A DNA stretch of 46,267 nt from contig JAQGMY010000062.1 of NCBI GenBank assembly GCA_028292105.1, positions 1-46,267 of the forward strand, written 5' to 3'. This DNA is from Ramlibacter sp. Its GTDB lineage: Bacteria > Pseudomonadota > Gammaproteobacteria > Burkholderiales > Burkholderiaceae_C. The position numbers and the translations under genes are program-made. The notes beneath the pieces were generated by a model. That model searched no databases. It was not told where the DNA came from and was given only the letters and a program-made list of their open reading frames with translations. This document shows, in pieces, positions 12,652 to 19,723 of this stretch; position 1 is the first letter of the stretch; each line of letters begins with the position of its first letter.

Positions 12652-14055
12652 ATGCACGATGTCCTGATCATCGGCGGCGGCAACGCCGCCCTCTGTGCCG
12701 CGCTGATGGCCCGCGAAGCCGGCGCCAGCGTGCTGCTGCTGGAATCCGCGCCGCGTGAATGGCGCGGCGGCAATTCGCAGCACACCCGCAACCTGCGCTG
12801 CATGCACGACGAGCCGCAGGACGTGCTGCTCGACGCCTACCCGGAGCAGGAGTTCTGGCAGGACCTGCTGAAGGTCACCGGCGGCAACACCGACGAGGAA
12901 CTGGCCCGGGTGGTGATCCGTGCTTCGTCCAGCTGCCGACCCTGGATGCGCAGGCACGGCGTGCGCTTCCAGCCCGCGCTCGCCGGCACGCTGCACCTGT
13001 CGCGCACCAACGCCTTCTTCATGGGCGGCGGCAAGGCGCTGGTCAACGCCTATTACCGCAGCGCCGGCAACCTGGGCGTGCAGGTCCGCTACGACGCGCC
13101 GGTGGACAGTCTCGAACTGGCGGACGGCCGCTTCGTCGCCGCGTTCGTGAAGGGCGAGCGCATCGAAGCGCGGGCCTGCGTGCTGGCGTCGGGAGGCTTC
13201 GAATCGAACCGCGAGTGGCTGCGCGAGGCCTGGGGCCGCAATGAGCGCGGCGAATGGCCGGCCGACAACTTCCTGATCCGCGGCACCCGCTTCAACCAGG
13301 GCGTGCTGCTCAAGCACATGATGGCCCAGGGCAGCGACATCATCGGCGACCCGACGCAGGCGCATTGCGTGGCCATCGATGCGCGCGCGCCGCTGTACGA
13401 CGGGGGCATCGTCACGCGCGTCGACGCCGTGTCGCTCGGCGTGATGGTCAACCGAGAGGCGGTGCGCTTCTACGACGAGGGCGAGGACTTCTGGCCCAAG
13501 CGCTACGCGATCTGGGGCCGGCTGGTGGCGCTGCAGCCCGGGCAGATCGGCTACTGCGTCATCGACAGCAAGGCGGTCGGGCGTTTCATGCCGCCGGTCT
13601 TCCCCGGCGTCCAGGCCGACACCCTGCCGGAGCTGGCGCGCGCGCTCGGCCTGGACCAACACCGCTTCATGCAGACCTTGAACGACTACAACGCCGCCTG
13701 CCGCGTCGGCAACTTCGACCACACCGTGCTGGACGACTGCCATACGGAGGGGCTGGCGCCGGCCAAGAGCCATTGGGCCCGCCCGCTGGACCTGCCGCCG
13801 TACTACGGCTATGCGCTGCGGCCCGGGATCACCTTCACCTACCTCGGCCTGAAGACCGACGCCCGGGCGCGTGTGCATTTCGGCGGCGTGGCGAGCGAGA
13901 ACCTGTTCGTGGCCGGCGAGATGATGGCCGGCAACGTGCTCGGCAAGGGCTACACCGCCGGTGTCGGCATGAGCATAGGCACGGCCTTCGGCCGCATCGC
14001 CGGCAGCGAAGCGGCGCGTGCCGCACTGAAGAAGGCGGACCATGCAGTCGCTTGA
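12652..14055 (+). CDS. tcuA: FAD-dependent tricarballylate dehydrogenase TcuA
   Basis: [20 protein letters not shown] dinucleotide fold; fumarate-reductase-like FAD domain [44 protein letters not shown]; overlaps a TcuB-like gene. Confidence 0.88.
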
Positions 14056-15187
14056 AGCCCTGGCCCGACAAGCGGCCGCCCTGGCGAACGGGGGCGGGGC
14101 CGTCGCGGAGGTGTCGCGCCAGATGGAAATCTGCAATGCCTGCCGGTATTGCGAAACCTTCTGCGCCGTGTTCCCCGCGATGACGCGCCGGCTCGCGTTC
14201 AGCCCGGGCGACGTCCACTACCTGGCCAATCTTTGCCACAACTGCGGCGCCTGCCTGCATGCCTGCCAGTACGCGCCGCCCCACGAGTTCGCGGTGAACG
14301 TGCCGCAGGCGATGGCGCAGGTGCGGCGTGAAACCTACGAGGCGTATGCCTGGCCGCGATCGCTGGGGGCGCTCTATCGGCGCAACGGCCTGGTGCTGGC
14401 ACTCGCCACTGCCGGCGGACTGGCCCTCTTCCTGGTGCTGGTGCTGGCGCTGGGTGGGACGCTGGTGCACCAGCCAATGGCGGGCAACTTCTACGCGGTC
14501 TTTCCGCACTCGCTGATGGTGGCGATGTTCGGGGCTGCCTTCGGCTGGGCCGTGCTGGCGCTTGCGATCGGCACCGCCAGGTTCTGGCGCGGCCAGTCAC
14601 CGGGGCCGGTGACCCCGGCCGCGGCCGCCGAAGCGGCGAAGAACGCGCTGGCGCTCACCTACCTGGATGGCGGCCACGGCGACGGCTGCAACGAGGAAAG
14701 CGACCGCTTCACGCTGGTGCGCCGGCGCTTCCATCACCTGACCTTCTACGGCTTCCTGCTTTGCTTCGCCTCCACCTGCGTGGCGACGCTGTACCACTAT
14801 GCGGGCCAGCCGGCGCCCTACGCGATCGCCAGCGCTCCCGTGCTCCTTGGCACCGTCGGCGGACTCGGCCTGCTCGCGGGTCCGGCCGGCCTGCTCTGGC
14901 TGAACCTGCGCCGGCATCCCCTGCATGGCGATGCGCGGCAGCGGCCCATGGACCGCGCGTTCATCGTGCTGCTGTTCGCCACCAGCCTGACCGGTCTGGC
15001 GCTGCTGGCCTGGCGCGACACGGGCGGGATGGCCTTGCTGCTGGCGGTGCACCTGGGGACCGTCATGGCCTTGTTCCTCACCTTGCCCTATGGCAAGTTC
15101 GCCCACGCCGTGTACCGAAGCGCGGCGCTGCTGAAGTGGGCGATCGAGCGGCGGCAGCCGAACCGCCTGCAAGTCGGCGCCGATTGA
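14042..15187 (+). CDS. tcuB: Tricarballylate utilization 4Fe-4S protein TcuB (CitB-like)
   Basis: Two Cys clusters [15 protein letters not shown] and [19 protein letters not shown] followed by TM helices; 14-bp overlap with tcuA. Confidence 0.88.
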
Positions 15188-15322: not shown

Positions 15323-16903
15323 ATGGGGAAAATCATCTTCGCGCCCGCTTTCCGGGTGCTCGACCGGCTGGGCCTGCTCGCCGGCTTCGCCCTGGTGGCC
15401 GCGCTGTTCGTCACGCCGGCGGCCCTTGCGTTGTGGTCCGCCGTGCCGCGCGAGACGCTGGTGCCGCTGGCCGTCGCCGGGCTGCTGCTGGGCCTGTATC
15501 TCCTGGCGGCGCTGCACGCCTTCATGGTCGCCGGCATCGACGGCATGATCTCCGTGACCGACCGCATCGCCAGCGGTGAGCTGGTGACCGCCGACGCGGC
15601 GGTCGAAGGGGTCTCGCGGCGGCACGAAGCAGCCCGGCTCTGGGCGTCGATCCTGCGCATGAACGAAAGCCTCGCCCGGATCGTGACGCAGGTCCGCACC
15701 AGCGCGCAAAGCATCGACGGTGGCGTGCGCACGATCGTCGAGGGCAACCGGCAGCTGTCGGAGCGCACGCAGGAGCAGGCGGCGTCGCTGGAGGAAACCG
15801 CCGCGGGTGTCGAGCAACTGGCTTCCTCGGCCCGCCAGAACGCCGAGAACTGCGCGCGCGCCAGCGAACTGGCCGGCGCTTCGCGCCAGGTCGCTGCCCA
15901 CGCGTCCGAGCGCATGCAGGAAGCGGCGGCGACCATGGAGGAGATCGACGCCAGCTCGCGCCGGGTCGCCGAGATCCTCGCCACCGTGGAAGGCATCGCC
16001 TTCCAGACCAACATCCTGGCGCTCAACGCTGCCATCGAGGCGGCCCGGGCCGGCCAGCAGGGCCGCGGCTTCGCGGTCGTCGCCGGTGAGGTGCGCAACC
16101 TGGCGCAACGCAGCGCCGAGGCCGCGCGCGAGATCCACGGGCTGATCCGCCGGTCCAGCAGCAGCGTCGAGAAGGGCCGCGCCCTGGTCGATTCCGTCGG
16201 CGCCACGATGGGCGAGGTGGTCGGCAGCGTCGAAAAGGTCACGCGCGTGCTCGGCGAAATCGCGCTGGCGTCGCGCGAGCAGAGCGCCGGGGTCGAGGAG
16301 ATCAACCGGGCCGTCGGCTCGGTGGATGCCGCCACGCAGCAGAACGCGGCGCTGGTCGAGCAAGCCGCGGGATCCGCCGCCGCCTTCCAGCGCGAGACCG
16401 CCCTGCTGATCGACGTGGTCGGCCGCTTCAAGACCGACCGCGGCGAGGATCGCGGCCGGGTGATCGCGCTGGTGAAGGCGGGCGTGGAACACGTGCGCAA
16501 GCGCGGCGTGCAGCAGGCCTGCGCCGACTTCATGGACCGCCAGGGCGGCTTCTGGAGGGGCGAGGACTACCTGATCGTCCTGACCATGGACTGCACGGTC
16601 CTGTGCCTGCCGCCCAAGCCGCAGCTGGTGGGCGACAACCACCGCGATTTCAAGGACGCCAGCGGCAAGCTGTTCACGCTGGAAAAGATCGAGCTGGCCA
16701 AGTCCGCCGGCCGCGGCTGGGTCGACTATGCGACCACCAATCCGGTGACCGGGCGCGAGGAAGCCAAGTCGGCCTACATCGAGCGGATCGGTGACGTGCT
16801 GGTCTGCTGCGGCATCTATCGCAAGGAGGCCGCGGCAGCAGCGACCATGGCGCAGCCTGCCGCCTACCTCGAATCGTCCTGGCCGCAGCTGGGGCGGGCC
16901 TGA
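15323..16903 (+). CDS. Methyl-accepting chemotaxis protein with C-terminal Cache-like domain
   Basis: MCP hairpin [49 protein letters not shown]; two N-terminal TM helices; C-terminal [65 protein letters not shown] resembles sCache_2. Confidence 0.9.
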
Positions 16904-16920: not shown

Positions 16921-16938
16921 ATTCACGGAACGTGAGTT
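16921..16938. promoter_or_regulatory. Putative TetR operator (autoregulatory copy)
   Basis: ATTCAC-GGAAC-GTGAGTT dyad about 30 bp upstream of tetR start; same half-sites as 17678..17696. Confidence 0.6.
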
Positions 16939-16968
16939 ATCGCGCCCGTCGGCCCTAGAATCCGACGG

Positions 16969-17634
16969 ATGGTGACCCCGGCCAAGAAGAAGTCCGCAGC
17001 AGCCGCTCCGCTCGACGCCCGCAAGCGCGACGCCGACCGATCGCAAAAGGCGATCCTGGTGGCGGCGCGGCGCGAGTTCGCGCGGCATGGACTGGGCGGC
17101 GCGCGCATCGAGCGGATCGCCGACGAAGCCGAGGTGCACAAGCGCCTGGTCTACTACTACTTCAAGGACAAGGACGGCCTCTTTTCCGCGGTGCTGGAGA
17201 GCGTGTACGCCGAGATCCGGGACGCCCAGCTGTATCTCCACCTGCAGGACATGCCGCCCCTGGCCGCCCTGCGCCGGCTGGTGGAGTTCACCTGGGACTA
17301 CTACATCGCCCACCCGGAATTCATCACCTTCCTCAACAGCGAGAACCTGCATCGGGCCAAGCACCTCGCCGCGTCGCCGCGCATTCGCGAACTGAATTCG
17401 CCGCTGGTCAGGACGCTGGAGGACATCGTCAGCCGCGGTCAGGAGCAAGGGCAGTTCCGCTCCGGCATCGACCCGATGCAGCTGTATTTCACCATCGCCG
17501 GTTGCGCCTATTTCTACCTGTCCAACATCCACACGCTGTCGGTCGGCTTCGACCGGGAGCTGTCCAGCCCCAAGCTGTTGATGCAAAGGGTCAACCACAT
17601 CGTCGAGGTCGTGGTCGCCTACGTGCTGCGGTAG
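16969..17634 (+). CDS. TetR/AcrR family transcriptional regulator
   Basis: AILVAARREFARHGLGGARIERIADEAEVHKRLVYYYFKDKDGLFSAVLE HTH signature. Confidence 0.93.
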   Translation: MVTPAKKKSAAAAPLDARKRDADRSQKAILVAARREFARHGLGGARIERIADEAEVHKRLVYYYFKDKDGLFSAVLESVYAEIRDAQLYLHLQDMPPLAALRRLVEFTWDYYIAHPEFITFLNSENLHRAKHLAASPRIRELNSPLVRTLEDIVSRGQEQGQFRSGIDPMQLYFTIAGCAYFYLSNIHTLSVGFDRELSSPKLLMQRVNHIVEVVVAYVLR

Positions 17635-17677
17635 GGCGCGGGGTCGCCCGCTTGCCTGCGGCCGGGATTTCCATAAG

Positions 17678-17696
17678 AATTCACCGACAGTGAATT
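17678..17696. promoter_or_regulatory. Putative TetR operator
   Basis: Perfect inverted repeat AATTCAC-CGACA-GTGAATT between tetR and the amidohydrolase gene. Confidence 0.7.
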
Positions 17697-17711: not shown

Positions 17712-18728
17712 TTGAAGAAGATCGACAGCTACGCCCACATCTTTCCGCGCGCCTATTTCGACCGCATGGCGGCCACCGCCAAGGACAAGGGGGCCATCAA
17801 GCGCTGGCTGACCATCCCGGTGCTGTACGACCTCGACGCCCGCCTGAAGATGATGGAGGAGTTCCCGGACTACCAGCAGCTGCTGACGCTGTCGATGCCG
17901 CCCATCGAGGTGATCGCCGGCCCCGAGGACTCGCCCGAGATGGCGCGCCTGGCCAATGACGGCATGGCGCAGATCCGCGATGCGCATCCGGACAAGTTTC
18001 CCGCCTTCGTCGCCTCGCTGCCGATGAACAACGTACCGGCCGCGCTGGAGGAGATGGAGCGCGCGATCACGCAGCTGGGCGCGCGCGGCATCCAGGTCTT
18101 CACCAACGTCAACGGCCGCCCGCTGGACGACGAGGAGTTCCTGCCGATCTTCGAGGCGGCGGTGAACAAGTACGACGTGCCGATCTGGATGCACCCCGCG
18201 CGGGGCGCCGGCATGAGCGACTACGCGAGCGAGAAGAAGTCCAAGTACGAGATCTGGTGGACTTTCGGCTGGCCGTACGAGACCAGCGCGGCGATGACCC
18301 GCATGGTCTTCTCCGGCTTCTTCGACCGGTGGCCCAACCTGAAGGTGATCACCCACCACATGGGCGCGATGATCCCGTTCTTCGACGGTCGCGTCGGCCC
18401 CGGGCTGGACCAGTTCGGCAGCCGTACTTCGGACGAAGACTACGAAGGGCTGCTCAAGCGCATGCCCAAGCGCCCGATCGACTACTTCCGCATGTTCTAC
18501 GCGGACACGGCGCTGGCCGGCGGCCGCAGCGGCATCCGGTGCGGCCTGGACTTCTTCGGCGCCAAGCAGGTGGTGTTCGCCTCCGACTGCCCGTTCGACC
18601 CGGAAGGCGGCCCGATGTTCATCCGCACCATCCCGGAAGCGATCGACTCGCTGGGACTGCCGGAAGACGAGCGGGAAGGCATCTACTTTCGCAACGCATT
18701 GCGCTTGCTGAAGATGCCCTGCTGCTGA
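17712..18728 (+). CDS. Amidohydrolase-2 family protein (ACMSD-like decarboxylase/hydrolase)
   Basis: TTG start; KIDSYAHIFP, VPIWMHPARG, LKVITHHMGAMIPFFDGR, QVVFASDCPFDPEGG motifs. Confidence 0.87.
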   Translation: MKKIDSYAHIFPRAYFDRMAATAKDKGAIKRWLTIPVLYDLDARLKMMEEFPDYQQLLTLSMPPIEVIAGPEDSPEMARLANDGMAQIRDAHPDKFPAFVASLPMNNVPAALEEMERAITQLGARGIQVFTNVNGRPLDDEEFLPIFEAAVNKYDVPIWMHPARGAGMSDYASEKKSKYEIWWTFGWPYETSAAMTRMVFSGFFDRWPNLKVITHHMGAMIPFFDGRVGPGLDQFGSRTSDEDYEGLLKRMPKRPIDYFRMFYADTALAGGRSGIRCGLDFFGAKQVVFASDCPFDPEGGPMFIRTIPEAIDSLGLPEDEREGIYFRNALRLLKMPCC

Positions 18729-18754: not shown

Positions 18755-19723
18755 ATGAAAAACATCGCCATCCTTTCCTTCGCGCTCGGCCTGATCGCCG
18801 CGGCGCCCTTCGCGGCGCAAGCGCAGAACTATCCGGAACGGCCGGTCCGCATCGTGGTGCCCTTCCCGCCCGGCGGCACGGTGGACCTGGTGGCGCGCGT
18901 GCTGGCCCAGAGCCTTTCGGAACAGACCGGCCAGACCTTCCTCGTGGACAACCGGCCGGGCGCCAGCGGCGCGATCGGCAGCGACGCGGTGGCCAAGGCG
19001 GCACCGGACGGCTACACGCTGCTGGTGCAGTCGCCGACGCTGATCGCCAGCCCGCTGATCAATCGCCGGGTGCCTTACGACGCCATCCGCGACTACCGGC
19101 CGATCGCGATGCTGGGCTCGGTGCCGATGGTGATGACCGTGCATCCGTCGATCCCGGCGAACAACCTCAAGGAGTTCATGGTCCTGGCCCGCGCCAACTC
19201 CGGCAAGTTCGCCTTCGGCACTTCCGCCGTCGGCTCTCCCATGCACCTGGCGACCGAGGCGCTGAAGAAGGAAGGCAAGCTCGAGATCCCGACCATCATC
19301 TACAAGGGCACCTCCGGCGCGCTCAACGATGCGCTGGGCGGCCAGATCACCGGCCTGATCGATGCGATCCCGTCGACCGCACCTCACATCGCCGCCGGCA
19401 AGCTCAAGCCGCTGGCCGTCACCACCAGGCGGCGGGTGCCCAGCCTGCCGAACGTGCCCACCGTCGCGGAGTCCGGGTTTCCGGAGTTCGAGATGGTCAC
19501 CTGGTACGGCCTGTGGGCGCCGCGCGGGCTGCCCGAGCCGATCGCCAGGAAGCTCGAAGCGCTGTCGCAGAAGGCCATGGCCTCCAGGACCGTCACCGAG
19601 AAGCTGGCGCCGCAGAGCTTCGAGTTCCGGGTGCTGGTGGGCGACAGCTTCAGCGGCTTCATCACCCAGCAGCTCGCGTCCTATGCACGGATCGTGAAGG
19701 ACGCGAACATCCAGGGCGAGTGA
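18755..19723 (+). CDS. Tripartite tricarboxylate transporter substrate-binding protein (Bug family)
   Basis: Signal peptide, YPERPVRIVVPFPPGGTVDLVARVLAQSLSEQTGQTFLVDNRPGASGAIGSDAVAKAAPDGYTLL Bug signature. Confidence 0.94.
   Translation: MKNIAILSFALGLIAAAPFAAQAQNYPERPVRIVVPFPPGGTVDLVARVLAQSLSEQTGQTFLVDNRPGASGAIGSDAVAKAAPDGYTLLVQSPTLIASPLINRRVPYDAIRDYRPIAMLGSVPMVMTVHPSIPANNLKEFMVLARANSGKFAFGTSAVGSPMHLATEALKKEGKLEIPTIIYKGTSGALNDALGGQITGLIDAIPSTAPHIAAGKLKPLAVTTRRRVPSLPNVPTVAESGFPEFEMVTWYGLWAPRGLPEPIARKLEALSQKAMASRTVTEKLAPQSFEFRVLVGDSFSGFITQQLASYARIVKDANIQGE

Follow-up and report, generated by a model that had tools for sequence, protein, structure and literature searches.

The locus analyzed here raises the question of whether a TetR-family regulator of Ramlibacter sp. 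controls both its own gene and an adjacent amidohydrolase-Bug gene pair through two inverted repeats of the same design, as an earlier note on this DNA had proposed. The locus lies within a stretch of 46,267 nucleotides, which is referred to as the window. The coordinates of its features are listed in Table 1.

Table 1. Predicted features of the tetR-amidohydrolase-Bug locus in the window
Feature	Coordinates	Strand	Evidence or remark
Operator 1 (predicted)	16921..16937	.	Proposed autoregulation site; 8 orthologous loci also have a dyad ahead of tetR
TAGAAT, possible tetR -10	16956..16961	+	Read from sequence; inference only
tetR, TetR-family regulator, 221 aa	16969..17634	+	TetR_N, TetR_C_29; AlphaFold2; fold search
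Operator 2 (predicted)	17678..17696	.	Proposed repression site before amidohydrolase; conserved in 8 orthologous loci
Amidohydrolase (Amidohydro_2), TTG start	17712..18728	+	Pfam E = 2.5e-33
Bug/TctC periplasmic solute-binding protein	18755..19723	+	Pfam TctC E = 2.1e-63

Regulator and neighboring genes

The protein identities given in the earlier note agree with the Pfam assignments, which are TetR_N and TetR_C_29 for the regulator, Amidohydro_2 for the enzyme, and TctC/Bug for the binding protein. In the regulator, TetR_N (PF00440) covers residues 29 to 75 (E = 3.5e-14; 52.8 bits against a cutoff of 24), and TetR_C_29 is matched with an E value of 4.4e-44. The AlphaFold2 model of the regulator (mean pLDDT, 91.6) has an all-helical fold with a C-terminal ligand-binding and dimerization domain, and the best Foldseek matches of the model are TetR-family structures, with TMq values of 0.63 to 0.79 in the top ten. 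The recognition helix spans residues 58 to 65, with His57 at its start. RutR and other solved TetR-family regulators (PDB 6z1b, 4jyk, and 3npi) are nearest in both fold and sequence and share the plan of an N-terminal helix-turn-helix followed by an all-helical ligand and dimer domain; however, these solved relatives are only approximately 25% identical to the window regulator, and their gene context differs. The regulator is not RutR itself, as it scored 56.9 bits against a cutoff of 368 for TIGR03613 and 52.3 bits against a cutoff of 230 for NF011584.

The Bug gene begins 26 bp after the amidohydrolase gene on the same strand. The amidohydrolase is related to ACMSD and 5-carboxyvanillate decarboxylase, with 3ij6 and 4icm as relatives in the PDB. 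Enzymes of the ACMSD and 5-carboxyvanillate decarboxylase type are expected to carry an N-terminal HxH (or ExH) metal-binding motif. Where that motif is expected, the window protein reads IDSYAH, and 3ij6, its closest solved relative, which is uncharacterized, reads IDAYAH. Upstream of tetR lies a chemoreceptor-like gene (15323-16903), in whose product the MCP signaling domain (residues 181 to 336) precedes a C-terminal sCache_2-type match (residues 412 to 507), the reverse of the usual order. Directly upstream of that gene is tcuA-tcuB (12652-15187), encoding an FAD-dependent tricarballylate dehydrogenase and its 4Fe-4S partner.

Predicted operators and their rarity

Both dyads were found at the places claimed for them. 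Operator 2 (AATTCAC-CGACA-GTGAATT) has perfect 7-bp arms separated by a 5-bp spacer and ends 15 bp before the TTG start codon of the amidohydrolase gene, and operator 1 (ATTCAC-GGAAC-GTGAGT) lies 31 bp upstream of the tetR ATG. The arms of operator 1 are imperfect, with one T/G pair broken, but its core and spacing match those of operator 2, and this likeness outweighs the strength of its own palindrome. The possible -10 hexamer of tetR, TAGAAT, lies between operator 1 and the ATG, 7 bp ahead of the latter. A strict sigma-70 scan of this region of the window found no promoter, that hexamer included. At operator 2, a -10-like hexamer that is clean in related loci is interrupted or less clear (CATAAGAAT).

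Dyads with 7-bp arms are not in themselves rare; the window contains 77 perfect ones with spacers of 3 to 8 bp. The shared ATTCAC-N5-GTGA core and its spacing, the central claim of the earlier note, are far less common. With up to one mismatch, this pattern occurred 5 times in the window, compared with 1.09 expected, and none of 100 shuffles gave 5 matches (4 of the observed 5 are the two operators counted on both strands). When the two intergenic intervals were dinucleotide shuffled, the agreement between the two sites was equaled in only 6 of 20,000 shuffles.

The two operators are also nearly unique in the source assembly (4.53 Mb; 84% complete). With up to two mismatches, AATTCACN5GTGAATT has only three matches there. 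Two of these are operators 1 and 2; the third, where the coding sequence of an enoyl-CoA hydratase-like protein begins, was taken as a chance match, and the pattern read backwards as a control gave no matches in the same assembly at the same threshold. The shorter TTCAC-N5-GTGAA has two further exact occurrences in the source assembly, one within the coding sequence of a Bug protein and the other before a prkA-like gene; neither was counted in the regulon, and the letters of the latter recur in G025, a related genome. The sequence TTCACCTACAGTGAA is common to L001 (G000:C72:8493) and G025:C9:952747, read from opposite strands of the two contigs. Its copy in the source genome is approximately 100 bp ahead of the prkA-like serine protein kinase gene, and the sequence is probably an element different from the tetR operators. 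The sites recognized in the window genome are only those ahead of tetR and ahead of the amidohydrolase-Bug pair.

Conservation in orthologous loci

Nine orthologous loci were compared, comprising the window and eight relatives obtained from a GTDB genome scan and from searches of relatives, namely, G025 (L034), two Variovorax loci (L055 and L056), four Hydrogenophaga loci (L057 to L060), and G483 (L138). Across the eight relatives, identity to the window was 73 to 80% for the regulator and 83 to 89% for the amidohydrolase; the amidohydrolases found in plasmid records were all less than 60% identical. All nine loci, which represent only a few independent lineages, retain the amidohydrolase-Bug pair and carry two matching dyads, one ahead of tetR and one ahead of the downstream operon. 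The dyads flanking tetR are kept in 9/9 loci, while much of the surrounding sequence has diverged. Lack of such conservation had been named in the earlier note as grounds for rejecting its proposal; with the dyads conserved throughout and nearly unique in the source genome, autoregulation together with control of the amidohydrolase-Bug pair is supported computationally.

The target-side dyad of each of the eight relatives shares part of its left arm with a -10-like hexamer (CATAAT, TACAAT, TATAAT, or AATAAT), and in several of them this dyad is preceded by a GC hairpin and a T-run resembling the tetR terminator. These two features fit an operon with its own promoter that would be blocked by the regulator.

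The downstream operon of L034 opens with genes for a Gfo/Idh/MocA oxidoreductase and a DUF993 protein, followed by the amidohydrolase-Bug pair. All four N5 matches with up to two mismatches in the 5.5 Mb of G025 fall within one cluster of approximately 14 kb, where one lies before tetR, one before the gfo-DUF993-amidohydrolase-Bug operon, and the other two in tandem before a porin gene. The tandem dyads (L223:2688-2778; G025:C11) are 72 bp apart and approximately 90 to 180 bp ahead of this Gram-negative porin gene, which is likely an extra regulon member in this nearest relative that is not seen in the window. The same stretch also encodes a xylose-isomerase-like protein, a DUF4147/MOFRL (glycerate-kinase-type) protein, and an enolase, neighbors that hint at breakdown of the substrate towards glycerate.

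Spacer length and the paralogous regulator

The spacer of the dyads is not uniform among the orthologues. It is 5 bp at both sites in five loci (the window, L034, L055, L056, and L138) and 6 bp at both sites in the four Hydrogenophaga loci. Full concordance of the 18 spacings under random pairing has a probability of 0.003, a figure weakened by shared ancestry. The two operators of a genome change spacing together, and so spacing would most simply be set by the regulator. In the regulator tree, the nine orthologues were joined with support of 100/99, and Hydrogenophaga (100/98) was sister to the N5 group (94/86), a topology that suggests a single N6-to-N5 switch as the simplest history. Because some of the orthologues, and a paralogue as well, use N6 spacing, the genome-wide scan for TTCAC-N5-GTGAA suggested in the earlier note would, by itself, miss orthologous operators.

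All nine genomes, Hydrogenophaga included, encode this paralogous TetR, which shares 57 to 62% identity with the window regulator, and Bug-gfo-DUF993 genes lie at or near its locus in most of them. The copy in the source genome (G000:C484:5255-5869) is 58% identical and is accompanied by two N6 sites. In the set compared, the paralogous TetR_C_29 regulators of Bug-gfo-DUF993 operons in Burkholderiaceae showed identities of approximately 55 to 63%. They resemble the window group in the half-site (TTMAC/GTKAA), in having dyads before tetR and before Bug or gfo, and in having the target-side site next to a -10-like hexamer. In contrast, they have an N6 spacer and Asn57, whereas the window group has N5 and His57, and they are predicted to govern Bug-gfo-DUF993 operons rather than the amidohydrolase-Bug pair. 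All sites that were clear enough to read in the paralogue set had a 6-bp spacer; at some of the loci, one of the two sides showed no clear site.

Several residues vary along with the spacing. Residue 57 is His in 5/5 N5 proteins, Asp in 4/4 Hydrogenophaga proteins, and Asn in 27/27 paralogues, and residue 59 is Lys in Hydrogenophaga only. Residues 121, 170, 192, and 208 are distinct in the N5 proteins, and Hydrogenophaga proteins carry the commonest paralogue state at these positions. In the AlphaFold2 model, residues 170, 192, and 208 sit in the last helices, through which TetR-family proteins generally dimerize. These associations between residues and spacing are correlations on a single branch and not demonstrated causes. 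A partial parallel is found in classical TetR (Tn10), in which V36F/E37A/P39K alters operator specificity, with tetO-4C5G as the operator (PMC6515661). The specificity residues of this variant appear to match residues 56, 57, and 59 here, with 57 and 59 aligning with Glu37 and Pro39; the equivalence was judged by eye, and the variant was engineered to change base specificity, whereas the change seen here is natural and concerns half-site spacing.

The N5 spacing may help to keep each paralogue off the sites of the other. Keeping them apart may also be the reason for the change, a hypothesis weakened by Hydrogenophaga, which has the paralogue and yet keeps N6 at the sites of both regulators, so that spacing alone is not a universal separator. 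A more specific proposal can be offered only tentatively, at somewhat less than even odds. The regulator and both of its operators may have moved together from N6 to N5 in a sub-lineage that has an N6 paralogue, with 1 bp of geometry, residue 57, and the C-terminal helices (residues 170, 192, and 208; likely dimer interface) separating the two paralogous regulons. In the open-access literature subset searched, no direct precedent was found for DUF993, for this gene set, or for a spacing change between paralogous TetR regulators.

Mode of regulation

The reading that best accounts for these observations, with a probability of roughly 0.88, is that the regulator is an autoregulated, local TetR-family repressor that acts on ATTCAC-N5-GTGAAT dyads, also controls the amidohydrolase-Bug pair, and is released by a ligand. 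As a homodimer, it would bind the dyad at its own promoter and the dyad over the amidohydrolase-Bug promoter, which it would thereby repress, and it would let go upon binding a substrate-derived ligand, presumably related to the compound imported by the Bug protein. The regulator would represent the N5 branch of a group whose other members, like the C484 paralogue, have N6 dyads.

Some TetR-family proteins activate, and the regulator could instead be an activator, or a mixed repressor and activator, working from the same sites. The failure to find a strong promoter in the window would suit a promoter that depends on an activator, but in the orthologues the target-side dyad overlaps the -10-like hexamer and the sequence immediately after it, a position that would block RNA polymerase rather than recruit it, which makes activation improbable and repression the favored prediction. 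An even smaller probability attaches to ownership of the dyads by another regulator, either the N6 paralogue or an unrelated palindrome-binding protein, with the adjacency of tetR being incidental. The half-sites of the 58% identical paralogue are nearly the same, but the locus encoding it in this genome carries separate N6 sites, and in N5 genomes the N5 dyads travel with the window-type tetR, further weak matches in other genomes being scattered. That the dyads are chance inverted repeats is hardly credible. However common 7-bp arms are in the window, the sequence and spacing shared by the two sites, their near-uniqueness in the genome, and above all their conservation in every orthologous locus refute this explanation.

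The predicted repressor and its sites are otherwise an ordinary local switch, of a kind that is common, and the unusual part is the concerted 1-bp change in spacing. The locus offers a well-defined and testable regulator-operator pair for an uncharacterized uptake or catabolic operon of Burkholderiaceae. N5 and N6 orthologues, together with a paralogue in the same cell, would make a clean system for studying how a TetR dimer shifts its half-site spacing and for asking whether one spacer base suffices to separate paralogous regulators.
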